A stretch of DNA of 58,908 nt from a virus, in IMG/VR virus record IMGVR_UViG_3300034375_009562, positions 1 through 58,908 of that record. One strand, given 5' to 3'. The notes under the pieces are model-generated. The model made no database searches. It saw only the letters and a list, made by a program, of their open reading frames with translations, and was not told the DNA's origin. Every line of letters begins with the position of its first letter. Position 1 is the first letter of the stretch. Both the position numbers and the translations under genes were made by a program. Positions 6,478 through 45,304 of the stretch are shown here, piece after piece.

Positions 6478-6667
6478 TCCTTAAAATATGGACTTCTCCA
6501 TCCTCTAATTCAATCACTTTAATAAATCCACGATCTTCGATCATTTGGAGTGTTCCATCAATTCCTGCTTCTAATCCTGCTTTAGCGCCTTGTCTATAAC
6601 TAATATAAACTGCTACGCCAAGGAGAACTAAAAAAAGTAAGTCTTTCAGTTGAATTATTAGTTCCAT
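6467..6667 (-). CDS. Single-pass membrane protein (66 aa)
   Basis: One N-terminal membrane segment (about residues 8-24, KDLLFLVLLGVAVYISY), then a soluble tail of about 40 residues (EDRGFIKVIELEDGEVHIL). The 3' end overlaps the small basic gene. Function unknown. Confidence 0.55.
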   Translation of the reverse strand: MELIIQLKDLLFLVLLGVAVYISYRQGAKAGLEAGIDGTLQMIEDRGFIKVIELEDGEVHILRNEG

Positions 6668-6685
6668 TATGTTTCACCTAGGTAG

Positions 6686-6708
6686 GTAGAGGGGTTTTTC
6701 CCCTCTAC
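6686..6708 (-). other. Strong 9-bp hairpin at a gene end
   Basis: GTAGAGGGG (6686-6694) and CCCCTCTAC (6700-6708) form a perfect stem with a 5-nt loop. On the minus strand the stem starts at the stop codon of the 84-residue gene and is not followed by a T tract. It is therefore more likely an RNA-stabilising or processing hairpin, or a partial attenuator, than a full intrinsic terminator. Confidence 0.5.
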
Positions 6709-6959
6709 TTAGTTCTGACTGCTTTCCACACTTCAGTAGAAGGCACACGAATAAAACGCTCACGCGTGTTATTTTTATCTGGATTTTGAATTGTAAGCAT
6801 GACACGCTTACCAAGAGTATGAGCCTTTAGTTGATTATCATTTCGTGCTGAAGACAACATATAGTCTCTACGAGATGCGTTTTTAATTGCTCGTTTGACT
6901 GTAGGTACAAGACCTTGAGACCGATAACCGCTAGACTTACCACCTTTTTTCTTCGCCAT
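6705..6959 (-). CDS. Basic hypothetical protein (84 aa)
   Basis: The start is the ATG at 6959, with GGAGG 5 nt upstream; the in-frame TTG four codons earlier would bury that site. The N-terminus is Lys/Gly/Ser-rich (MAKKKGGKSSGYRSQG) and the body is basic (TVKRAIKNASRRDYML). A clear promoter (6988-7016) lies just upstream. DNA or RNA binding is plausible but no family is recognised. Confidence 0.6.
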   Translation of the reverse strand: MAKKKGGKSSGYRSQGLVPTVKRAIKNASRRDYMLSSARNDNQLKAHTLGKRVMLTIQNPDKNNTRERFIRVPSTEVWKAVRTK

Positions 6960-6987
6960 TTGATCCTCCAAATTTCATTTATAAATA

Positions 6988-7016
6988 ATAGTATAATATT
7001 TTTAAGTAGATGTCAA
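6988..7016 (-). promoter_or_regulatory. Host-type sigma-70-like promoter
   Basis: On the minus strand TTGACA (7016-7011), a 17-nt AT-rich spacer and TACTAT (6993-6988) lie just upstream of the ATG at 6959. Spacer length and composition match the other promoters in the window. Confidence 0.6.
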
Positions 7017-7024
7017 ACTATTAA

Positions 7025-7567
7025 TTAATTAGATTTGATTGATACTACGACTGGAATTTTAGATCCAACGGGAACATCAGAGCGAGTGATCTTAGTTCCT
7101 TTTAAGCCTAGAACTTCATATTCAACTGAATAATGAGAAAGATGCTCTTCTTGAGAGTTTATCCAAGTAGTTTTACATTTTTCTTGTTCTCTATAACCAA
7201 TAATATTGTTATTGGTTGATTTCTTTTTTGTGGCTTCATTTGCTCCAATAATGCCTCCAAGAACTGCACCTGCAGCTCCTGCACCGTCAGCATCGCTAAC
7301 ATTATTACCAATGGCACCACCAATTAAACTACCGATGATAAGGCTACCAATAATATCGCCACCTTCTTGTTCAGCAGTTCCGTAGATTGGTACTTGTACC
7401 ATCTCACAAGTATTTACAGGATTTTGTATATTAACCAGTTTATATTTAGGAGTAGAACTGGTAACAACTCCTTGTACAGTATATGACTCTGCAAAAGCTA
7501 GACTACTAGTAAAGCCAACTGCTGAAGATACTAGTAAAGTAACAATACATTGATTTAAAAATTTCAT
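7025..7567 (-). CDS. Secreted glycine-zipper (17-kDa surface antigen-like) protein
   Basis: 180 residues with a Sec signal peptide (cleavage likely after SSLAFA before ES). The centre has a glycine-zipper double helix (IIGSLIIGSLIGGAIGNN ... GAVLGGIIGANEA), as in the Rickettsia 17-kDa antigen / 2TM glycine-zipper family. There is no lipobox cysteine at the cleavage site, so it is probably a soluble or membrane-inserted periplasmic protein. The C-terminal domain is beta-rich with a C...C pair. Such proteins usually come from host genomes; in a phage it may modify the envelope or block superinfection. Confidence 0.7.
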   Translation of the reverse strand: MKFLNQCIVTLLVSSAVGFTSSLAFAESYTVQGVVTSSTPKYKLVNIQNPVNTCEMVQVPIYGTAEQEGGDIIGSLIIGSLIGGAIGNNVSDADGAGAAGAVLGGIIGANEATKKKSTNNNIIGYREQEKCKTTWINSQEEHLSHYSVEYEVLGLKGTKITRSDVPVGSKIPVVVSIKSN

Positions 7568-8420: not shown

Positions 8421-8553
8421 TTATCTGTGCCTTCATTGCTTTTTCGTGTTGAGCATTAAAAAATTTAGGTTTTTCCTTACTACCTCTTAAGTAGTTTGGT
8501 TGTGGTTCACCTATAAACCATTCTTTAATGCGTTTAAGAATTTTTTTGTTCAT
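8395..8553 (-). CDS. Small basic protein (52 aa)
   Basis: Frame from ATG at 8553 (MNKKILKRIKEWFIGEP) to TAA at 8395, overlapping the end of the methyltransferase gene by 20 nt and the start of the bL33-like gene by 26 nt. The N-terminus could form an amphipathic helix and the rest is Lys-rich. It fills an otherwise unused gap in the operon. No family recognised. Confidence 0.45.
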   Translation of the reverse strand: MNKKILKRIKEWFIGEPQPNYLRGSKEKPKFFNAQHEKAMKAQINGKKEQNK

Positions 8554-9151
8554 CTAAAGTCTCATACTGTTTTCTAAACCACCAAGTTGTATTCGGATAG
8601 ACATTAATCTTTTCACCGCATACATCAAAAACTGCCTGTTTAACTTCGTCAAAATCAAAGTCGTCACCAGATATAATCCCACCAAGTTTAACTTTAGGGT
8701 ACCAGGCTTTGATGTCGTCAATCACATCTTGATAAGCGTGAGATGCATCAATCATAACAAAAGAAACACTTCTATCCTCAAACTGCTCTGCAGCGTCGAT
8801 AGAGGTCATCTTATGTATTTTAACTTGATCCTCAACTCCTGCCTCACGCAAGTTAGATTTAAAGGCTTCTAGAAAGTCACCACCATGCGCCTCAATAACC
8901 TCATAATGAGGTGCGTCACTAAAATCTGATAGGTCAAAGATATCAACTGCATTAAACTCAATGCACTTTTTACTATCTTTGATGAATTTTCCCATTGCTG
9001 AAGTAGATTGTCCTAAAAAACTACCAACTTCTACGAAAACATCCTCATCCATAGAGTTTGCAACTATTTCACCATAAAATTGGATATACCTAGAATACCC
9101 ATATATTTTATGCCCATTTACTTCTACATAGAAGCCACCATCATTAAACAT
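8534..9151 (-). CDS. Class I SAM-dependent methyltransferase (Methyltransf_24 type)
   Basis: 205 residues. FVEVGSFLGQSTSAM (about residues 39-53) is motif I, AVDIFDLSDF carries the acidic ribose-binding residue, and the later segment FVMIDASHAYQDVIDDIKAWYPKVKLGGIISGDDF is the hallmark of the methyltransferase-24/cephalosporin-hydroxylase-like group that often acts on sugars or polysaccharide precursors. An AAAGG site precedes the ATG. It sits between dnaK and the bL33-like gene. Substrate unknown; a role in glycan decoration is inferred. Confidence 0.8.
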   Translation of the reverse strand: MFNDGGFYVEVNGHKIYGYSRYIQFYGEIVANSMDEDVFVEVGSFLGQSTSAMGKFIKDSKKCIEFNAVDIFDLSDFSDAPHYEVIEAHGGDFLEAFKSNLREAGVEDQVKIHKMTSIDAAEQFEDRSVSFVMIDASHAYQDVIDDIKAWYPKVKLGGIISGDDFDFDEVKQAVFDVCGEKINVYPNTTWWFRKQYETLDEQKNS

Positions 9152-9233
9152 AAAGTTACCTTTCTAACTTACATAATATATAGAATACAGCAAACCTACA
9201 ACTGCCCAAAAAGACATTAGTATTAAAAGACTT

Positions 9234-11054
9234 TTAAGCAACTTCTTGCTCGTCTACTATATCAGCATCAGGATTTCTTGCATACATACGAGATCCTACT
9301 TTCATCTGAGCATCTTGAAGTTCATTGAGTAGATTTTCAAGAGCATCTGTATCTGCCTCATTGATTTTTTCAATCAAAGATTCGATTTCAATTCGTTCTT
9401 CATCAGTGATTTCTTCTGAGAACTCTTTCAGCATAGATTGTGCAGAGTGAACTGCTGATTCAGCCGCATTGCGTAAGTCGACTTCGCGACGACGTGCTGC
9501 ATCAGCTTCTTTATTTGCTTCTGCCTCATCTATCATACGATCAATCTCTGCATCGCTCAATCCCCCATCTGACTTAATAGAGATCTTTTGTTCTTTGCCA
9601 GTTGCCTGATCTCGCGCACTAACATTAACAATACCGTTTGCATCAATATCAAAGGTTACTTCAATCTGTGGAACGCCTTTCGGTGCAGGAGCAATTCCTG
9701 ATAACATAAACTCTCCAAGTAGTTTATTATCTGCTACCATTTCTCGCTCACCTTGATACACTTTAATACTCACCGCTGGTTGATTGTCAGCAGCCGTAGA
9801 GAATGTCTGAGATTTTTTAGTTGGAATTGTAGTATTACGATCAATAATACGAGTCATTACACCACCAAGTGTCTCAAGACCTAATGATAGAGGTGTTACG
9901 TCTAATAAAACTACATCGTCTACGTCTCCGCTAAGTACTCCAGCTTGAATTGCTGCTCCAATGGAAACTACTTCATCAGGATTAACACCTTTATTTGGTA
10001 CAGTTTTAAAGTAAGCTTCAACAATCTCTGCAACCTTCGGCATACGAGTCATTCCACCTACAAGTACAACCTCATCTACCTTATTAAGGTTAGCATCTTT
10101 CATTGCTCTTTTACAAGCCTCAATACTCTTATCAAGTAGATCTTGTACTAAAGATTCAAACTTAGCACGAGTAATTTTAACCTGAAGATGTTTTGGACCA
10201 GAAGCATCTGCTGTAACAAAAGGAAGATTTACTTCAGTTTGTGTGGTGGAAGACAATTCGATTTTAGCTTTTTCAGCCGCTTCTCTTACTCTTTGAAGTG
10301 CTAGGTTATCTTTTCTGAGATCAATTGATTCGTTTTTCATAAACTCATCTGCAATGTAGTCTATCAAACGATTATCGAAGTCTTCACCCCCTAAATATGT
10401 GTCTCCATTTGTGGAAAGCACTTCAATGATACCATCTCCGATGTCTAATATAGAAACGTCGAATGTGCCTCCACCTAAGTCATAAACTGCAATTGTACTG
10501 CTGTCATTTTTATCTAGTCCATATGCAAGTGCCGCTGCAGTAGGCTCGTTAATAATACGAAGTACTTCAAGACCTGCAATTTTTCCTGCGTCTTTAGTTG
10601 CTTGACGTTGGGCATCATTAAAGTATGCAGGTACAGTAATAACCGCTTTATCAACTGACTGCCCTAAATATGCTTCTGCGTCTGTTTTAAGTTTTTGTAA
10701 AATTTTTGAAGAGATTTGAGATGGTGAGTATTCTACGTCTAGTGCTTTTACCCAGGCATCTCCATTTCTTGATTTAATAATACTATATGAAACTGATTCT
10801 CTAACGCTTTTTGCTGTGTCGCTGTCATACCTAACGCCCATCAGTCTTTTAACTGCATGAATTGTATTTTCTGCATTAGTAACTGCTTGACGCTTTGCTG
10901 AAGCGCCAACAACTTCTTCATCCGCGCTAAAAGAAATAATAGATGGAGTAGTTCTAGCTCCCTCTGCATTTTCAATAATCTTTGCACTCCCGTTTTCAAA
11001 TACCGAAACACAAGAGTTTGTTGTACCTAAATCAATACCAATTGTTTTACTCAT
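9234..11054 (-). CDS. dnaK: Molecular chaperone DnaK (Hsp70)
   Basis: 606 residues. The complete nucleotide-binding domain starts [18 protein letters not shown], contains [36 protein letters not shown] and [15 protein letters not shown], and leads via [20 protein letters not shown] to a full substrate-binding domain with a helical lid. The lid is shorter than in bacteria (E. coli DnaK is 638 aa), and the acidic tail ends [11 protein letters not shown] instead of the usual EEVDK-like end. It is coupled to a small upstream membrane-protein gene (ATGAGTAA). No DnaJ or GrpE is seen, so host co-chaperones would be used. With GroES and Hsp20 it forms a phage folding set. Confidence 0.97.
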
Positions 11055-11208
11055 AATTTATTCTCCAATGCACATAACCGTGCCAAAGTAAATAGTTTAT
11101 AAAAATACCTAAAGCATCCCCAAAGGCAATGCTTATAGTACTTGTGTAGGCTATATAAGCTATCACTACATAGTCGTACCATTCAAGGCTAGTCCCAGAG
11201 TGATTCAT
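11047..11208 (-). CDS. Small membrane protein coupled to dnaK
   Basis: The start is placed at 11208 ([13 protein letters not shown]), where the ATG lies in the last codons of the upstream gene (20-nt overlap). The longer in-frame start would overlap that gene by more than 110 nt. The 53-residue product has two hydrophobic segments ([17 protein letters not shown] and [14 protein letters not shown]). Its TAA overlaps the dnaK ATG. Function unknown. Confidence 0.5.
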
Positions 11209-11650
11209 AATGTTTACCAAATAGTGCGAAACCTTCATCCATTCGTGCTTGATGAGCATTTCTTGCATCCCGATCAATGATATGCTCTTTAGACCAGACA
11301 AGAGTTTTGTTGCCTTCTGAGTCTACTTCTCCCGCATCCCAGTCTATCTCACCTTCTTGAAGCACATACTGTTGTTCCCAATCAATTAGTTTTTGCTCAA
11401 ATGACCAGATCATTTTATCTAAAATCTCATCCCATTGTTCTTCAGACATAGTACTAGGATAACTATGAGTTGATGCTTTAAGTTGTTTTAGCATAGGAAC
11501 AATAATTTCAGCAAGGGTAAGATCCATACTCCAAGTATCCCAAGGGTCTATATGTACCTTTCTTTTTTGTTCTGGAAGATAATCAAAAAGTTTATATAAC
11601 CAGTTGTGATAAAATCTGTAAGTAGGATAATTGCTAATATATACTTTCAT
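11189..11650 (-). CDS. Hypothetical phage protein (153 aa)
   Basis: Complete frame beginning MKVYISNYPTYRFYHNW, acidic and rich in Trp (EEQWDEILDKMIWSFEQ). Its middle and end resemble the 110-residue protein at 13354-13686: both have a Pro-x(3)-polar-E-x-W-D-I-L segment followed by a helix, and both end in a Tyr-x(2-3)-Phe/Leu-Trp motif, so they may be distant paralogues. A promoter at 11660-11688 lies directly upstream. No function is recognised. Confidence 0.6.
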   Translation of the reverse strand: MKVYISNYPTYRFYHNWLYKLFDYLPEQKRKVHIDPWDTWSMDLTLAEIIVPMLKQLKASTHSYPSTMSEEQWDEILDKMIWSFEQKLIDWEQQYVLQEGEIDWDAGEVDSEGNKTLVWSKEHIIDRDARNAHQARMDEGFALFGKHYESLWD

Positions 11651-11659
11651 AGTGAACTC

Positions 11660-11688
11660 ATTTTATTAAAATTTTAAGCATTTGTCAA
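11660..11688 (-). promoter_or_regulatory. Sigma-70-like promoter for the dnaK operon
   Basis: On the minus strand TTGACA (11688-11683), a 17-nt spacer and TAAAAT (11665-11660) lie between the giant-RNA terminator and the 153-aa gene. This would drive the 153-aa gene, the small membrane gene and dnaK. Confidence 0.6.
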
Positions 11689-11690
11689 AC

Positions 11691-11720
11691 AAAAAGCACG
11701 CCCAGTTTCCTGAGCGTGCT
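11691..11720 (-). terminator. Rho-independent terminator of the giant RNA
   Basis: AGCACGC (11695-11701) and GCGTGCT (11714-11720) pair. The stem is extended inward by CAG/CTG around a GAAA-type loop, and a T run (11694-11691) follows on the minus strand. It marks the 3' end of the long non-coding transcript and insulates it from the dnaK promoter. Confidence 0.85.
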
Positions 11721-12722
11721 AGTTTGTGATTGCCCCTCCCGACAGGGGACTTACCAACTCGCTCACAAACAAACGAGACTAAACATCAATTTTCGGGCAG
11801 GATGAGTTTAGTACATCCCCGACAAGTTTTGGGTTAACTGGTACTTATCAAACCAGCCCCTCATCTACGAACATTTAGTTGTAGTGAAGGAAAACTAGGG
11901 TAGTCGCCACCAACCTCGCCAACTACCGTGCGGCAGGATACACCCTGTTGTTCCGCCCCGACTCTCAGTTTTAGGCCGATTTAACATGCCATGCCCCTGA
12001 GACAAGGGACTACTTGAAGAGAGAGGTTTGCACTCCATTTCCGAGTTCATAAGTCTCAGGTCTTGCTAATTAGACGATCTTCAAGCAGCAAGTGAGTGGC
12101 GCTTGTAAAACTAGTAATAACTGCTTACCACTCTAAATTGGGCAGAGCCTGTAAATAAACACAGGTTGCACCTTCCTCTATTCGCCCATAGTGGCATGGT
12201 GTAGAGGTTTCACCATATAGTGAAGTGATGAGAATATTTTTTACTCACAAGCGACTAGTCAGTATCTCGTATACCATTCGCCACAACAACCTGTTAGCTA
12301 GTTGAGCAGGAGCACTACTCCCCAGGTCTACTTTTTCCCGCTGACACAGGAATATTCAGTCACACTTCGATGTGGGAGCTACCCACACAAGAAACTGGGG
12401 GGAGAACTTTTAGGTCGCTCCCCTGCCCCTCACAGAGCCGACCGCGTTGATGTAGGTAACTGCAAAACCTGTCCAAGACGGCGATATTTTATGAGCAAGC
12501 TCAAGGACTGCGGCTCAGGTCTCGTATCGCTCGTGCCTAGCGTCACGGTAACGGCGGGAACCCGATGAGTTCTTCTTTTATGTCGCGCTCATTACGACAA
12601 GAGAGACAGGCTGAGACCGATTCCGTGACTCCGTTGCATCATTAACTGGTTTTACCTTGTGCTGTTAGTGTCCCGAAGGAGACTGTGTAGCCCAGAGGAT
12701 GATGCCTACTCTCTCATTCAAT
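11695..12722 (-). ncRNA. Giant structured non-coding RNA, GOLLD/ROOL-class candidate
   Basis: About 1,030 nt have no credible CDS on the minus strand, where all neighbouring genes lie. The base composition is much richer in G+C than the flanks. A consensus promoter (12729-12757) sits at one end and a perfect intrinsic terminator (11691-11720) at the other. Local hairpins are visible, for example CCCCT/AGGGG near 11735, TGTGGG/CCCACA near 12370-12390, TGTCG/CGACA near 12580-12600, and a UUCG-type loop near 12675. Large ornate RNAs of the GOLLD and ROOL families have this size, occur in phages and lie near tRNA genes, as here (11 tRNAs within 5 kb). Being a structured RNA gene is well supported. 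The family name is inference, since I cannot run a covariance search. Confidence 0.6.
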
Positions 12723-12728
12723 AAATAT

Positions 12729-12757
12729 ATTATATAAAAATTTTAAGTTCTTAGCAA
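12729..12757 (-). promoter_or_regulatory. Promoter of the giant RNA
   Basis: On the minus strand TTGCTA (12757-12752), exactly 17 nt, then a perfect TATAAT (12734-12729). The predicted start is near 12722, at the boundary where base composition changes from AT-rich to structured sequence. Confidence 0.75.
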
Positions 12758-12767
12758 CATTAAAATC

Positions 12768-13091
12768 AAAGGGGAGACTGCTTTCTGTACTAGCGAAGAT
12801 TAATTTTACAGTGCCTAGTGAACTACCTTTGTAATACACATCTTTGGCGGATCTTGCTTTCCTTACTTACAGGACTCCCCATGAAATTTTGCGGATGGTT
12901 TTTTTAAGTTGGTTATCCATTCCTCAACAACAGAATAAGGGCTGATCACGACACCAAATCTGGTAATTGTCTATCAGCTCTCTCTGAGGTTCAGAGAGCA
13001 TTTCCTTCTAGTGAAAACTAGAGTGCTATAGTAGGTGCTATTTTTGTCCGAATCTTATTCAGCGACTTAGGCATAACTGCCTTCTCATTAT
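12768..13091 (-). ncRNA. Second structured non-coding RNA (about 320 nt), unknown family
   Basis: The region lacks a supported CDS and has its own promoter (13098-13126). On the minus strand it shows GGCA/TGCC, TCTAGT/ACTAGA with a TTTC loop, and CTCTCTGA/TCAGAGAG (plus-strand arms 12980-12987 and 12991-12998) hairpins. A long-range stem joins GGGGAGT near 12885 with CTCCCC near 12770, followed by TTTGATTTT. Its first transcribed bases (AATGAGA) match those of the giant RNA. I looked for RNase P, 6S and SRP signatures and found none. It could be a leader part of one larger locus, but the internal promoter argues for separate transcripts. Confidence 0.5.
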
Positions 13092-13097
13092 TTTAAT

Positions 13098-13126
13098 ATT
13101 ATAAATAAAAATTTAGAGTTAGCCAA
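13098..13126 (-). promoter_or_regulatory. Promoter of the 320-nt RNA
   Basis: On the minus strand TTGGCT (13126-13121), 17 nt, TATAAT (13103-13098). The spacer resembles that of the giant-RNA promoter (CTAA-rich then T-rich). Confidence 0.65.
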
Positions 13127-13168
13127 TCAAATTTTTGAAAATTTTAAAGTAAGCCTATTACTCTAAGG

Positions 13169-13357
13169 TCATTTTTTTAGTTTTTCGCTTAACCAGATAA
13201 ACGGAAAGATAACAACAAATATAGGCAACACAATAGCCCATAAAAGTAAGTCACTTACAGTTGATTCTTGTTCTTCGTGTTTTCCGTTTCCTGATGCAGC
13301 TCTTGTCCAATATACCCCACTATTGTGGTTCTTCGGTTTTAGTCCTGCTTGTCTCAT
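13169..13357 (-). CDS. Single-pass membrane protein (62 aa)
   Basis: The N-terminal half is polar (RQAGLKPKNHNSGVYWTRAASG) and a C-terminal membrane helix (SDLLLWAIVLPIFVVIFPFIW) ends with KLKK, suggesting a cytoplasmic basic tail. The ATG overlaps the upstream TGA (ATGA). It ends just upstream of the promoter for the small structured RNA. Function unknown. Confidence 0.55.
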   Translation of the reverse strand: MRQAGLKPKNHNSGVYWTRAASGNGKHEEQESTVSDLLLWAIVLPIFVVIFPFIWLSEKLKK

Positions 13358-13687: not shown

Positions 13688-13987
13688 TTATTTCTCTATT
13701 ACTTCATCCATAAAAGTTTCAAATTGATCGAGCATTTCTTTATAGGAAAAAGCATCGACAACCTTCCAGTCTTTGTCTATAACAAAACTGTCATAATCTT
13801 CCATTTCTTCTAGTGCTTTAACCATCAAACAATGTTTATGCTGTGTTTTGTCTTTTTGAACATAAAAACCTCTACAATCACAAGAATAGTGACCACGATT
13901 ATTTTTTGTAACATTGTAGGTGATTGGATCATCTTGTAGGTTAGTAACTTGAAAATCTGAATTAGTTATTTTTTTAACTGCATACAT
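13688..13987 (-). CDS. SWIM-like zinc-finger protein
   Basis: 99 residues. The stretch YSCDCRGFYVQKDKTQHKHC gives a C-x-C-x(n)-H-x-H-C arrangement close to the SWIM zinc finger (CxCxnCxH), about residues 34-53. SWIM domains bind DNA or proteins. The rest is acidic helix. A GGAGAG site precedes the ATG and a promoter lies at 14011-14039. Exact role unknown. Confidence 0.65.
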   Translation of the reverse strand: MYAVKKITNSDFQVTNLQDDPITYNVTKNNRGHYSCDCRGFYVQKDKTQHKHCLMVKALEEMEDYDSFVIDKDWKVVDAFSYKEMLDQFETFMDEVIEK

Positions 13988-14056: not shown

Positions 14057-14150
14057 TGGTAGGCCAGTCTGGATTCGAACCAGAATCGCTCTCTAATCTG
14101 GAGACTGTGCCGCGTATAAGGCGGGTGTTTTACCATTAAACTACTGGCCT
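14057..14150 (-). tRNA. tRNA-Ile (UAU), atypical long variable arm
   Basis: The acceptor stem AGGCCAG/CTGGCCT, D-arm GTTT/AAAC and T-arm TCTGG/CCAGA with TTCGAAT loop are all intact, and CCA is encoded. The anticodon loop CTTATAC reads AUA codons. The anticodon stem has one C-C mismatch. About 24 nt separate the anticodon and T arms, including a TCTC/GAGA hairpin, so the molecule has a class II-like variable arm unusual for an isoleucine tRNA. Confidence 0.75.
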
Positions 14151-14152
14151 AT

Positions 14153-14229
14153 TGGTACTCCCGGAGGGACTCGAACCCCCAACAACACCGTTATGAGCGG
14201 TGGGTTCTAACCAATTGAACTACAGGAGT
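14153..14229 (-). tRNA. tRNA-Met (CAU)
   Basis: Acceptor ACTCCTG/CGGGAGT, anticodon stem CACCG/CGGTG with loop CTCATAA, T-loop TTCGAGT, and CCA encoded. The CAU anticodon could also be isoleucine type (lysidine-modified); the sequence alone does not decide. The 3' end of the 14191-14508 CDS overlaps it. Confidence 0.88.
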
Positions 14230-14508
14230 AAATATTCGAGTTATCCAAGATTTTTTAGGACTCGATTGATACTTATGTATAAATTCTGGCGAGTAGTCTT
14301 GTGTTAAATAGTATGCTAAAGCAGCTTTAGCAATAGCTGTTTCGACTAGATTAACTTGAGAATCAGTATAGGCTTTCATTTTAAGCAAATCGTTTTCAGT
14401 AAGTTCTTTACCCCAATGGTCAATTAATGTTTTTGCTATAGCTTCTAGCTCAAGTTGCTTTTCAAAAGCATCAATTTCTAGATCTGCCCAAAAATCATTT
14501 CCCATCAT
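14191..14508 (-). CDS. Hypothetical helical protein ending inside tRNA-Met
   Basis: 105 residues, helical and acidic at first (EKQLELEAIAKTLIDHWGKELTENDLLKMK). The last 13 codons are read from the 5' half of the tRNA-Met gene and the TAA stop lies in its anticodon loop, giving the odd tail TPVVQLVRTHRS. A GGAGA site precedes ATGATG at 14508. The natural product probably ends this way, but the tail may simply be tolerated. No family recognised. Confidence 0.5.
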   Translation of the reverse strand: MMGNDFWADLEIDAFEKQLELEAIAKTLIDHWGKELTENDLLKMKAYTDSQVNLVETAIAKAALAYYLTQDYSPEFIHKYQSSPKKSWITRIFTPVVQLVRTHRS

Positions 14509-14680
14509 CTGTTGTATCTCCCATTCTGAAAAAGTATTTTTTCATTGCAATAGCTAAGTCATCCCCTTCGATATATACCCTGCTTGAAGGTATGCCTTCT
14601 TGAAATAAAGTAGCAAAAAGTTTACCATTATCAATAGCAAACTCTATTTCAATATTTGTCCCTTCAAATCTGTATTTCAT
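14495..14680 (-). CDS. Hypothetical protein (61 aa)
   Basis: Starts MKYRFEGTNIEIEFAIDNGK, probably beta-rich followed by a helix (GDDLAIAMKKYFFRMGD). It overlaps the next gene by 14 nt and lies between tRNA-Leu and tRNA-Met in a mixed tRNA/CDS transcript. Unknown function. Confidence 0.5.
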   Translation of the reverse strand: MKYRFEGTNIEIEFAIDNGKLFATLFQEGIPSSRVYIEGDDLAIAMKKYFFRMGDTTDDGK

Positions 14681-14694
14681 GCTATCCTCATGTT

Positions 14695-14780
14695 TGGTAC
14701 GGACGGCGAGACTCGAACTCGCACGACTTAAAGTCTCAGGATTTTAAGTCCTGTGTGTCTACCTATTCCACCACGCCCGC
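14695..14780 (-). tRNA. tRNA-Leu (UAA)
   Basis: Acceptor GCGGGCG/CGTCCGT (with G-U pairs), anticodon stem CAGGA/TCCTG with loop CTTAAAA, long class II variable arm, T-loop TTCGAGT, encoded CCA. Confidence 0.93.
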
Positions 14781-14786
14781 ATATAA

Positions 14787-14996
14787 TTAATCTTTTTCTG
14801 TTAATTCTTTAATACGAGCATAAGCAGCATATCGCGCTTCTGTTTCTTCTTTTAGTTGATGTTTTAGTAGTTCAATTTCGTTACTCAGTTGTATTACCAT
14901 TTTTCGATAGTATTCAGCTTCTTTGTCAGTCTGGTCGACTGCTTCTTGCTTTTGTAGCACAGGTTTTTTTAAAGGTATGCCAAAAGAATATTCCAT
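14787..14996 (-). CDS. Small coiled-coil protein (69 aa)
   Basis: The ATG at 14996 (MEYSFGIPLKKP) is preferred because GAGG lies 9 nt upstream; the longer frame has no site. The C-terminal two thirds is a heptad-like helix (YYRKMVIQLSNEIELLKHQLKEETEARYAAYARIKEL). Probably a dimer or trimer; function unknown. Confidence 0.5.
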   Translation of the reverse strand: MEYSFGIPLKKPVLQKQEAVDQTDKEAEYYRKMVIQLSNEIELLKHQLKEETEARYAAYARIKELTEKD

Positions 14997-15027
14997 AGTA
15001 ATTAACCTCATTTCATTTTATATTTAT

Positions 15028-15056
15028 ATAATATAATAAATTTAAGTAGCTGTAAA
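15028..15056 (-). promoter_or_regulatory. Promoter upstream of the 14996 gene
   Basis: On the minus strand TTTACA (15056-15051), 17 nt, TATTAT (15033-15028). It would restart transcription after tRNA-Trp. Confidence 0.5.
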
Positions 15057-15064
15057 GTATAAAT

Positions 15065-15139
15065 TGGCACAGGTGCGAGGATTTGAACCCCGACTTCCGG
15101 TTTTGGAGACCGTCGTGCTACCATTGACACTACACCCAT
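15065..15139 (-). tRNA. tRNA-Trp (CCA)
   Basis: Acceptor ATGGGTG/CACCTGT with G discriminator (as expected for tRNA-Trp), anticodon loop CTCCAAA, T-loop TTCAAAT, encoded CCA. Confidence 0.9.
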
Positions 15140-15140
15140 A

Positions 15141-15230
15141 TGGCGGAGAGACAGGGATTCGAACCCTGGAAGGGCTTGCACCCTTGCTGGTTTTCAAGAC
15201 CAGTGCCTTCAACCACTCAGCCATCTCTCC
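15141..15230 (-). tRNA. tRNA-Ser (UGA)
   Basis: Acceptor GGAGAGA/TCTCTCC, anticodon stem CTGGT/ACCAG with loop CTTGAAA, long variable arm, T-loop TTCGAAT, encoded CCA. Confidence 0.95.
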
Positions 15231-15233
15231 ATT

Positions 15234-15310
<77 letters not shown>

Positions 15311-15318
15311 AAGTGTTA

Positions 15319-15822
15319 TTACTTTTGTGCAACACAATAAAATGCGTGGTTCAAATCATATCCTTGAGAAACAAAACTTTTAGACCAAAGATTATCCATA
15401 TCTTCAAAGTAGTATTCCATCAAATTAGGAGTCAATGCGTGAATATGCTTTCTGTTATGCCAAGGACGCCAATATTTTTGATCAAAATGAGGTAGATATA
15501 GAAATAAAATACCACCTGGTTTTAGTTTAGAATTCCAGTACTCAAGTGCTTCTACATAGTTAGGTAGATGTTCTAAGCAGTGAGAAGAGAAAATATAATC
15601 TACTAAAGGAGGCACATCAGGAAGGTTATAAGCATCCCAAGGATCGTCAAAATCTAAATCAATTGGGATAGCTCCAGGATACGCCCATTCTTTTTTCATA
15701 CATCCAATATCAAACCCAATTCCTGAGAGTATTTCTTGAGCAAAAGGAATAGCATACTTAGACGCATGACCTTTTGTTTGGAGTATAGGATATTCCTCTC
15801 CTTTAAATTCAATTGTTTCCAT
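15319..15822 (-). CDS. Class I SAM-dependent methyltransferase (Methyltransf_11 type)
   Basis: 167 residues. FDIGCMKKEWAYPGAIPIDLD (about 37-57) gives motif I and the acidic second strand; DYIFSSHCLEHLPNYVEAL (about 74-92) is the conserved post-motif with CLEHL; LKPGGILFLYLPH follows. The protein is compact, lacking the long C-terminal part of many family members. It starts within the end of a 50-residue gene and stops just before tRNA-Arg. Substrate unknown. Confidence 0.8.
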   Translation of the reverse strand: METIEFKGEEYPILQTKGHASKYAIPFAQEILSGIGFDIGCMKKEWAYPGAIPIDLDFDDPWDAYNLPDVPPLVDYIFSSHCLEHLPNYVEALEYWNSKLKPGGILFLYLPHFDQKYWRPWHNRKHIHALTPNLMEYYFEDMDNLWSKSFVSQGYDLNHAFYCVAQK

Positions 15823-15961
15823 TTTGTAGTAACCTATCTATTTTCTTTTCAATACTTTGAAGAGTAGTTTCAATATCTTTTATAAGATCTTTTACATCTT
15901 TTGGCTCTTTTGTCTCTTCTCGTAACCTTCTAAGCATATAAGCCTCATAAGACTCTCTCAT
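15809..15961 (-). CDS. Small coiled-coil protein (50 aa)
   Basis: ATG at 15961 overlaps the upstream TGA (ATGA) and has AGGAG 6 nt upstream. The product MRESYEAYMLRRLREE... is a single amphipathic helix rich in Lys and Glu (KDLIKDIETTLQSIEKKIDRLL). It overlaps the methyltransferase start by 14 nt. Likely an oligomerising small protein; function unknown. Confidence 0.55.
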   Translation of the reverse strand: MRESYEAYMLRRLREETKEPKDVKDLIKDIETTLQSIEKKIDRLLQNGNN

Positions 15962-16263
15962 CTTAGTCTCCTGTAATGAGTTAATTCATACATTCGCTTA
16001 AATGATTTTGCTTCTGAAGAAGAAAAAAACCTAAACCAAACAGTATTTCCAAAACCATACTGCCACTGTGTCCAGTCCCACATATACTCACAATTATCTA
16101 AACACCATTGTTTTAGTACTTTAAATTCGGCACTATCATATGTGAACTTTGTTTTAAAAAATTCAATAGAATCTCCTTGAATACCTTTATTAAAAGATTC
16201 AAATTTCTTATTTTCTTTACAAAACTCATATGCTTTTTGATCGGACCAATTCTTCTTTATCAT
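15958..16263 (-). CDS. Hypothetical Trp/Phe-rich protein (101 aa)
   Basis: Complete frame MIKKNWSDQKAYEFCKENKKF..., with clustered aromatics (EYMWDWTQWQYGFGNTVWFRFF). No domain recognised. It is translationally coupled to its neighbours on both sides. Confidence 0.55.
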   Translation of the reverse strand: MIKKNWSDQKAYEFCKENKKFESFNKGIQGDSIEFFKTKFTYDSAEFKVLKQWCLDNCEYMWDWTQWQYGFGNTVWFRFFSSSEAKSFKRMYELTHYRRLR

Positions 16264-16354
16264 ATTTTTCTTTTACCTTTGTATAAATTCTTTTAGCAGT
16301 AGTCTTATTACCATAAAAAAGAACAACATTATTTACATAGATAATACAACGCAT
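16226..16354 (-). CDS. Small hypothetical protein (42 aa)
   Basis: The ATG at 16354 follows the upstream TAA by one base (TAATATG). The product reads MRCIIYVNNVVLFYGNKTTAKRIYTKVKEKY..., a small beta-hairpin-plus-helix pattern. It overlaps the next gene by 38 nt. Short length limits confidence. Confidence 0.4.
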   Translation of the reverse strand: MRCIIYVNNVVLFYGNKTTAKRIYTKVKEKYDKEELVRSKSI

Positions 16355-16355
16355 A

Positions 16356-16592
16356 TTATCTATCTCTTGCATCTTCAATATGGGTTTCTGATTTCCAGAC
16401 AATTTGGCCCTCTAAAACATATTCTACTGCGTGGATGTAATCTTTTTCTTCATCATTTAATATATTCCAAAATTTAGTAATAGAATAAAGATGTTCTCTG
16501 ACAACTTCAGGTCTATTAAGATGATAATTATGATTCATCCAGTTCTCAAGTATATCTAGTCTTTGATTAATTTTTTGCTTTAAGTCTGTCAT
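16356..16592 (-). CDS. Hypothetical helical protein starting at a tRNA 3' end
   Basis: 78 residues beginning MTDLKQKINQRLDILENWM. The ATG at 16592 lies one base after the CCA of tRNA-Glu, so no independent ribosome-binding site can exist once the tRNA is processed. An in-frame GTG at 16601 would lie inside the tRNA. It may be translated as a leaderless message. Predicted all-helical; no family recognised. Confidence 0.5.
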   Translation of the reverse strand: MTDLKQKINQRLDILENWMNHNYHLNRPEVVREHLYSITKFWNILNDEEKDYIHAVEYVLEGQIVWKSETHIEDARDR

Positions 16593-16593
16593 A

Positions 16594-16669
16594 TGGTACA
16601 CCCTACGGGATTCGAACCCGTGTTGCCGCCGTGAAAGGGCGATGTCCTAAACCACTAGACGAAGGGTGC
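16594..16669 (-). tRNA. tRNA-Glu (UUC)
   Basis: Acceptor GCACCCT/AGGGTGT, anticodon stem TCGCC/GGCGG with loop CTTTCAC, T-loop TTCGAAT, encoded CCA. Confidence 0.93.
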
Positions 16670-16670
16670 T

Positions 16671-16744
16671 TGGAGCGGCATATCGGATTCGAACCGATGA
16701 CAAGAGCTTGGAAGGCTCGCATGTTACCACTACACCAATGCCGC
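16671..16744 (-). tRNA. tRNA-Gly (UCC)
   Basis: Acceptor GCGGCAT/ATGCCGC, anticodon loop CTTCCAA, T-loop TTCGAAT, encoded CCA. Separated from tRNA-Glu by one base. Confidence 0.94.
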
Positions 16745-16750
16745 GTCATA

Positions 16751-16972
16751 TTAAAGATACTCTTCAACAATTTCTAACTTATCTTTGTAGTCTGCCATTT
16801 CAGCAATTTCTTTTTCAATTTCATCCATAATGTCGCCATGCTCTCCAATCCCAGCTGGATTCTCTAGCAAGTTTTCAACATTAATTAGATGTTTTTCAAT
16901 ATGTGCTTCAAAGTGAAGACGAAGTGCTTCTTTGATGCGTTCTTGCATACTAATATGTGATCGTTGTTTCAT
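16751..16972 (-). CDS. Hypothetical acidic helical protein (73 aa)
   Basis: The start at 16972 (MKQRSHISMQERIKEAL) is chosen because GAGGG lies 5-6 nt upstream. Mostly helical (LHFEAHIEKHLINVENLLEN ... IMDEIEKEIAEMADYKDKLE). It lies between tRNA-Leu and tRNA-Gly. Unknown function. Confidence 0.55.
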   Translation of the reverse strand: MKQRSHISMQERIKEALRLHFEAHIEKHLINVENLLENPAGIGEHGDIMDEIEKEIAEMADYKDKLEIVEEYL

Positions 16973-17093
16973 TTTACCCTCATTAAAGTTGATGTGGGCT
17001 AACCGTTGACCCACACGCGTGTATTAAGGCACGACCCTACCCAGGTGGCACCATCTGCTTAGTTATTTTACAAGAGAAGCAGAACTCTTAAAC

Positions 17094-17178
17094 TGGTGCC
17101 CATGGAGGGAGTCGAACCCCCACGCCGTAAAGCACAGGTACCTAAAACCTGCGTGTCTACCAATTCCACCACATGGGC
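17094..17178 (-). tRNA. tRNA-Leu (UAG)
   Basis: Acceptor GCCCATG/CATGGGC, anticodon stem CAGGT/ACCTG with loop TTTAGGT, class II variable arm, T-loop TTCGACT, encoded CCA. Confidence 0.94.
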
Positions 17179-17181
17179 TTG

Positions 17182-17257
17182 TGGCTCCGACTGCAGGACT
17201 CGAACCTGCGACAGGGTGATTAACAGTCACCTGCTCTACCAACTGAGCTAAGTCGGA
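17182..17257 (-). tRNA. tRNA-Asn (GUU)
   Basis: Acceptor TCCGACT/AGTCGGA, anticodon loop CTGTTAA, T-loop TTCGAGT, encoded CCA. Confidence 0.95.
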
Positions 17258-17260
17258 ATA

Positions 17261-17336
17261 TGGTGCTGAGTGGAGGACTTGAACCCCCAGCCTCTGGAGT
17301 ACAAAACCAGTGCTCTACCAGTTGAGCTAACTCAGC
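17261..17336 (-). tRNA. tRNA-Thr (UGU)
   Basis: Acceptor GCTGAGT/ACTCAGC, anticodon loop TTTGTAC, T-loop TTCAAGT, encoded CCA. First tRNA of the cluster in transcription order, 16 nt after the promoter. Confidence 0.93.
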
Positions 17337-44856: not shown

Positions 44857-44865
44857 TTTTTGCTT
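44844..44865. repeat. 22-bp perfect palindrome at the bS21 stop codon
   Basis: AAGCAAAAATT followed by its exact inverse AATTTTTGCTT, spanning the bS21 stop codon and touching the -35 box of the tmRNA promoter (44864-44869). It could be a weak terminator for the small operon or an operator. Confidence 0.6.
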
Positions 44866-44892
44866 GCTAAGTACTAAATTTTTTGTTAAATT
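44864..44892 (+). promoter_or_regulatory. Promoter of the tmRNA
   Basis: TTGCTA (44864-44869), 17 nt, TAAATT (44887-44892). The predicted start near 44899 precedes the acceptor piece. Confidence 0.6.
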
Positions 44893-44963
44893 ATATTCAA
44901 TAGCTTCGTTGAAGCAAGTCAAACACTAGACTGGACGCGGGGGCAGTACCCGCCGCCTCCACC

Positions 44964-45102
44964 ATAAACACACGATGAAGTATTGCAAAAACTGTAAACA
45001 TTATTGGACAAAAGGCACTAAAGGTAAATGGTGCTGTAAGTTTGGTAAAAAATGCGAAAAAGCAATGGGACATTGTAAACTAAATAATGGTCGTGTGTTT
45101 AT
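44964..45102 (+). repeat. 12-bp inverted repeat flanking the tmRNA intervening segment
   Basis: ATAAACACACGA (44964-44975) and TCGTGTGTTTAT (45091-45102) are exact complements. With the acceptor stem (44954-44960/45106-45112) and two further pairs between them, they form a continuous helix of about 21 pairs with one mismatch. The intervening RNA is thus a long hairpin from which the two tmRNA pieces are cut. Confidence 0.8.
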
Positions 45103-45118
45103 GATGGGGGCGAACTAG
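44975..45118 (+). CDS. Cys-rich mini-protein (47 aa) nested inside the tmRNA gene
   Basis: The intervening segment of the tmRNA has one open frame: MKYCKNCKHYW, then GKWCCKFGKKCEK and MGHCKL, ending VFMMGAN and TAG inside the 5' acceptor strand of the coding piece. The six cysteines in CxxC and CC/C...C spacing look like the zinc-binding mini-proteins common in phages (YCKxCKHY start). The ATG lies at the top of the processing hairpin, and no Shine-Dalgarno is present. Expression and processing would compete: translated RNA could not be cut into tmRNA. It may be translated from the excised segment or be a relic. Confidence 0.45.
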   Translation: MKYCKNCKHYWTKGTKGKWCCKFGKKCEKAMGHCKLNNGRVFMMGAN

Positions 45119-45304
45119 GATCGACAGGTGGTTAATAGATAAGTGGAGAAGCAGGTGCGCAAGCGACCTTAACCGCAAGATTAAAACATCCGCAAACGAT
45201 AACTTTGCAATCGAGGACATCCGCTTAGCGGCATAGTCTCATGGGGTATGGTTCCACCTAGCAACAGAACGGGCCGATTTTTTATAATAAAAGTGAGTAA
45301 AATA

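Follow-up and report, generated by a model that had tools for sequence, protein, structure and literature searches.

GOLLD, ROOL and other giant RNAs of phages have no known function. GOLLD assembles as a 14-mer nanocage, and it is suspected to act in trans as a scaffold or a decoy. tRNAs are sometimes located within the linker of GOLLD, and ROOL is likewise a large phage RNA near tRNA islands (PMC12286853). The manA RNA is classed as cis-regulatory (PMC2864571). The tRNAs of phages reportedly vary in the anticodon loop as a means of evading host nucleases (PMC10264068).

The window analyzed in this study is a whole stretch of 58,908 nucleotides (58.9 kb), a linear virus record of a phage of marine type encoding Hsp70, Hsp20, an NAD-dependent ligase, a DnaB-like helicase, and a permuted tmRNA. 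The RNA locus lies directly downstream of a tRNA island of 11 tRNAs (14057-17336) and upstream of the phrog_11543 and dnaK genes. Related phages have up to 25 tRNAs. The original prediction described a gene-free kilobase, with more G+C than its surroundings and lying between a consensus promoter and an intrinsic terminator on the minus strand, as a large structured RNA of the GOLLD/ROOL kind. Its coordinates for the RNA were correct, and the features of the locus are listed in Table 1.

Table 1. Positions of the RNA, its parts, and the neighboring elements in the window.
Feature	Position	Strand	Basis
Predicted noncoding transcript, whole (about 1,028 nt)	11695..12722	-	Promoter and terminator, no ORF, frame-breaking indels, fold z -3.9
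Promoter TTGCTA-17-TATAAT, expected start near 12722	12729..12757	-	10/12 consensus matches
Second similar promoter TTGGCT-17-TATAAT, upstream	13098..13126	-	Repeats the region of the first promoter (76%)
5′ block of the extension (335 nt), no recognized homologue	12388..12722	-	Local fold z -0.4
Diverged manA domain (RF01745; 170 nt) with the invariant GUGACUGAAUA	12218..12387	-	Rfam 61.3 bits, gathering score 55.2
tRNA-like cloverleaf	12009..12089	-	Core 12084-12013, acceptor 12 bp, no CCA
Conserved pseudoknotted 3′ core (146 nt), directly before the terminator	11720..11865	-	Match to model R3
Core helix P1	11856-11852/11842-11838	-	
Core pseudoknot PK1	11849-11843/11827-11821	-	
Core helix P2	11812-11806/11784-11778	-	
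Core pseudoknot PK2	11797-11793/11742-11738	-	
Core helix P4	11748-11744/11737-11733	-	
Core helix P5	11769-11763/11729-11723	-	
Intrinsic terminator	11695..11720	-	11-pair stem (one U.G), loop GAAA, tail TTTTTGTTTG
Promoter-like TTGACA-17-TAAAAT for the downstream genes	11660..11688	-	11/12 matches
Next gene downstream, phrog_11543 (unknown function)	11189..11650	-	
Phage DnaK (Hsp70), downstream	9234..11054	-	

Is this RNA a GOLLD or a ROOL? The region 11600-13200 was searched against all 4227 Rfam families at E ≤ 10, and neither GOLLD (RF02032; a covariance model of the conserved 3′ part with a gathering score of 150 bits) nor ROOL matched at this threshold, so that the Rfam check suggested for the two families was negative for both. 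With the same library, the sister phages L004, L463, and L464 gave matches to true GOLLD of 197-209 bits, and membership in either family was rejected on these grounds. In size, setting, and layout, its resemblance to GOLLD is well supported: both are roughly 1-kb RNAs located in tRNA islands of phages, with a conserved 3′ part and a variable 5′ part, and the window RNA has a tRNA-like insert in its 5′ part. In contrast, the window RNA shows no sequence or structure match to GOLLD, its 3′ core of about 146 nt has another fold, and the sister phages carry true GOLLD as a separate locus. It differs from ROOL in the same lack of a match, and no module was found in common. The original prediction left it between a known family member and a new one. 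A new kind is closer: the 3′ core covaries and lacks an Rfam match, and it is joined by a tRNA-like domain and a manA domain that has diverged.

The anatomy of the transcription unit was as predicted. The minus strand of the RNA region has no ORF of 60 amino acids, and an 88-residue frame starting with TTG on the plus strand has no Pfam match. The G+C content is 0.45-0.49 inside the region versus 0.35-0.38 in the flanks. The promoter was found on the minus strand as described, and so was the strong terminator, one of whose pairs is a wobble. In near-identical copies of the region, two indels (at 12192 and 12037-12042) disrupt any reading frame. Terminator-like sites occur in excess (5 observed, 2.0 by chance), promoter-like sites are no commoner than chance (7 observed, 7.7 by chance), and TTG-N20-TATAAT occurs four times against 1.83 expected. 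Because promoter matches alone do not exceed chance, the promoter call rests on context. About 50 nt spanning the promoter are about 86% identical to DNA of T5-like Klebsiella phages (78 records), and the short homologue in L463 starts with TTGCTAAG at the place matching the window promoter. The full RNA folds at -358.5 kcal/mol, a value reached by 0 of 100 shuffles. Since a dnaK stretch of the same length also has a z of -2.4, folding energy alone proves little, and covariation is the real evidence for a structured RNA.

The covariation came from relatives of the 3′ end. A protein query from upstream of the RNA (13688-13987) led to two syntenic relatives, L463 and L464, each with a 275-nt gap containing a promoter, an RNA starting with AUGAGGGGCUGGU, and a terminator. 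A search for the AUGAGGGGCUGGU motif gave 10 contigs, these two among them, besides two sister contigs of the window. The covariance model R3, built from seven sequences of other phages with the window excluded, has a single match in the window (11865-11720; 57.7 bits, E 1.1e-12), the next score being 13.2 bits. It matches 14 of the 50 records searched, namely the window, its near-identical sister, and 12 other related phage records. Among the seven sequences without the window, 8 double-changed pairs fall in five helices (1/500 shuffles). Covariation among homologues had been proposed as a check, and adding the window and the distant L487 brought the number of such pairs in the 3′ core to 12 (0 of 500 shuffles as high). 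The alignment was made with the covariance model and hand-set strands, MAFFT having misaligned PK2 and P5 between the window and its relatives. Both pseudoknots pair in all core sequences, and pairing is higher within than between sequences (0.97 versus 0.58 for PK1; 1.00 versus 0.76 for PK2). In L487, PK2 has changed from CCCGAA/UUCGGG to GCACAA/UUGUGC. All six elements pair in the window core, which is followed by the terminator, and an intrinsic terminator likewise comes after the core in all homologues that were checked. No Rfam match was found over the core in the window, L463, or L464. Since the latter two also lack one, the core is absent from Rfam release 15. Sequence and covariation together show that the 3′ 146 nt of the window RNA are part of an RNA family that contains pseudoknots, occurs in a clade of tRNA-rich phages, and is not in Rfam.

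Farther upstream, the manA domain scores above the gathering threshold and keeps the architecture and the GUGACUGAAUA motif, although its 61 bits compare with about 170-196 for canonical full copies. Of 47 aligned pairs, 3 are broken and 44 are standard, of which 21 are the same as in the consensus, 16 differ at both positions, and 7 differ at one. The count of 16/47 leans towards structure because the alignment was fitted to structure. The closing helix has changed from the consensus GGGAG/CUCCC to AAGUG/CACUU and still pairs, and the conserved helices are present, with one consensus hairpin missing. The setting is different. Canonical manA lies close before a gene, the next ORF usually beginning soon past the motif, whereas the window domain sits inside a larger terminated RNA and is separated from the next start codon by 568 nt that include a terminator.

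It may be asked whether the whole RNA is a giant 5′ leader, in which ligand sensing by manA governs an attenuator ahead of the phrog_11543-dnaK genes. The cis-regulatory classification of manA (PMC2864571) would fit, as would the 45 nt between the terminator and the next start codon, and in relatives, too, the core and terminator lie shortly before an ORF. However, the end of manA is about 500 nt from the terminator, and the genes adjoining the core vary from phage to phage. The search for an antiterminator gave a best upstream partner of -12.4 versus -18.8 for the terminator. With no competing antiterminator and a separate promoter-like site for the downstream gene, action in trans is favored over an attenuator, and the leader is considered unlikely.

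In several phages, manA was found next to tRNA genes. Genes for tRNAs (Asn, Gly, Met) lie directly 3′ of manA in L170, L186, L197, L215, L251, and L256, and also in L464 (9065-9349). Among the canonical manA loci, these six, which resemble one another in part, stand against an expectation of about 0.03. A link between manA and tRNAs is possible. In a diverged subtype of manA, GUGCAAGGAAA replaces GUGACUGAAUA, and this subtype adjoins GOLLD in L463 (9789-9995) and L464 (9065-9268), and the motif of L165 is similar. The weak manA match in L165 (37 bits) was set aside since the conserved GUGACUGAAUA is absent. A contig scan with the manA core gave too many matches, likely due to chance.

The cloverleaf between manA and the core matches the Rfam tRNA model (RF00005) at 32.3 bits under permissive filters, which is above the gathering score. 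With the model R2 (30 phage tRNAs, filters off), it scores 32.8 bits (E 6e-9), and the next non-tRNA match 7.5 bits. The copy in the sister contig L002 scores 34.5 bits despite seven changes and folds as a clean cloverleaf. Because no tRNA is reported for this copy with default-type filters, the cloverleaf call depends on the unfiltered search. ARAGORN calls no tRNA at the site. The window RNA shares the four-arm cloverleaf with tRNAs, but its acceptor is closed and has 12 bp instead of 7 bp, without a free 3′ CCA. GG is missing from the D loop, and UGC takes the place of UUC in the T loop. Judged by these features, it cannot be an ordinary tRNA. The window and L002 differ at 25 sites over 19 kb, and seven of these fall in a 24-nt stretch of the cloverleaf (12037-12060), in the anticodon arm, the T arm, and the D stem, with the fold kept. 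The cluster could be the result of one recombination event.

In summary of the layout, the window has an extension of about 860 nt, with manA and the cloverleaf, 5′ of the core, and the core stands alone in the relatives examined. DNA searches of phage records and searches through the relatives of DnaK and DnaB for full-length homologues gave near-identical contigs only, and the extension is known from just three near-identical contigs. The local fold of the 5′ block is no better than that of shuffled sequence, and pairing between the 5′ and 3′ blocks of the extension is at chance level (202/400). Long-range helices of the minimum free energy (MFE) structure reaching 11831-11780 were rejected because they clash with the covariation-supported PK1 and P2. 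A single long MFE helix (-62 versus -41.5, 0/1000) was not accepted since it was picked from the MFE structure and is hence biased. A long-range fold of the extension is thus unsupported beyond chance.

In most relatives, the core begins about 20 nt after the upstream gene, as in L463 and the L466 group; the other arrangement is a start some 45 nt after a promoter of its own. With this 3′ UTR-like position, the core may act in cis in most relatives. In L463, the gene immediately preceding the core (6632-7345) has a phosphomannomutase match (PF03332, E 5e-28). In the tRNA island of L463, manA (9789-9995) and GOLLD (10502-10947) are separate loci. In that of L464, GOLLD (8519-8965) is followed by manA (9065-9268) and, 7 nt later, by a tRNA-Met. 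From such separate loci in related islands, the modules appear to circulate within phage tRNA islands. It was considered whether only the 146-nt core is functional and the extension merely reflects a chance insertion of modules that once belonged to the island. The stand-alone cores, the manA directly before a tRNA in L464, and the 5′ block without excess folding are consistent with this. On the other side, the manA fold has been maintained with 16 compensated pairs and the cloverleaf through seven between-strain changes, which makes an inert extension improbable.

The region is very probably a real modular noncoding RNA. There is good support for a large structured RNA that sits in a phage tRNA island and has a promoter and a terminator of its own, and comparison of its parts shows a terminated modular RNA with predicted domains under structural constraint. 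The best overall explanation, with a probability of roughly 0.55, is a modular noncoding RNA of the phage, about 1.03 kb long and independently transcribed. Divergence from GOLLD or ROOL would explain the size, the tRNA island, and the conserved 3′ and variable 5′ parts, but it is very improbable: neither family matches at E ≤ 10, and GOLLD lies beside a stand-alone core in L463 and L464, which makes the core a locus separate from GOLLD. Decay of a coding region, for which there is nothing but the absence of ORFs, was rejected as practically excluded by the frame-breaking indels, the covariation, the terminator, the higher G+C content, the RNA-family matches, and the one frame lacking a Pfam match.

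As an independent modular RNA, it would on balance act in trans rather than as a leader. The best reading by analogy is that, although not a GOLLD, it would work in the manner of one during infection, serving as a scaffold or decoy, with the core and terminator forming a stable 3′ end. The cloverleaf might mimic a tRNA and so bind or soak up a host factor directed at tRNAs, for example an anticodon nuclease, and manA might dock against the cloverleaf or sense beside it. The mimic idea was raised because the cloverleaf changes fast and keeps its fold in a phage with tRNA-rich relatives. The tRNA-decoy step would be the most likely specific role, offered as a tentative hypothesis. It is a speculative and rather unlikely combination that giant phage RNAs generally consist of a conserved pseudoknotted 3′ core plus interchangeable modules (manA, tRNA mimic), with manA as a tRNA-linked structural module and not a metabolite riboswitch, and the tRNA mimic as a fast-evolving decoy against host tRNA-targeting defences.

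What is added to the known giant RNAs is a terminated, pseudoknotted phage RNA core supported by covariation and without an Rfam match, as well as a kilobase version of it carrying two known modules (manA and tRNA-like). The finding shows that giant phage RNAs can be module-built, here from a diverged manA, a domain resembling a tRNA, and a pseudoknotted 3′ end that related phages share. Their modularity thereby becomes testable, and so do the question of whether manA belongs with tRNAs or with metabolite sensing and the use by phages of embedded tRNA mimics against tRNA-targeting defences.

Some other features of the window and its relatives were observed. The gene-free region continues upstream to 13168, and within 12770-13126 the second promoter precedes a further gene-free stretch with hairpins. 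This promoter may give a longer transcript with a longer 5′ end or a separate RNA at about 13090-12770. The window encodes a GDP-mannose 4,6-dehydratase at 411-1418, and its tmRNA (44860-45279) matches the alphaproteobacterial and permuted models alike. ARAGORN called a tRNA-Pyl in the relatives L336 (9609-9683), L337 (9231-9305), and L463 (9117-9191), where amber reading is possible.
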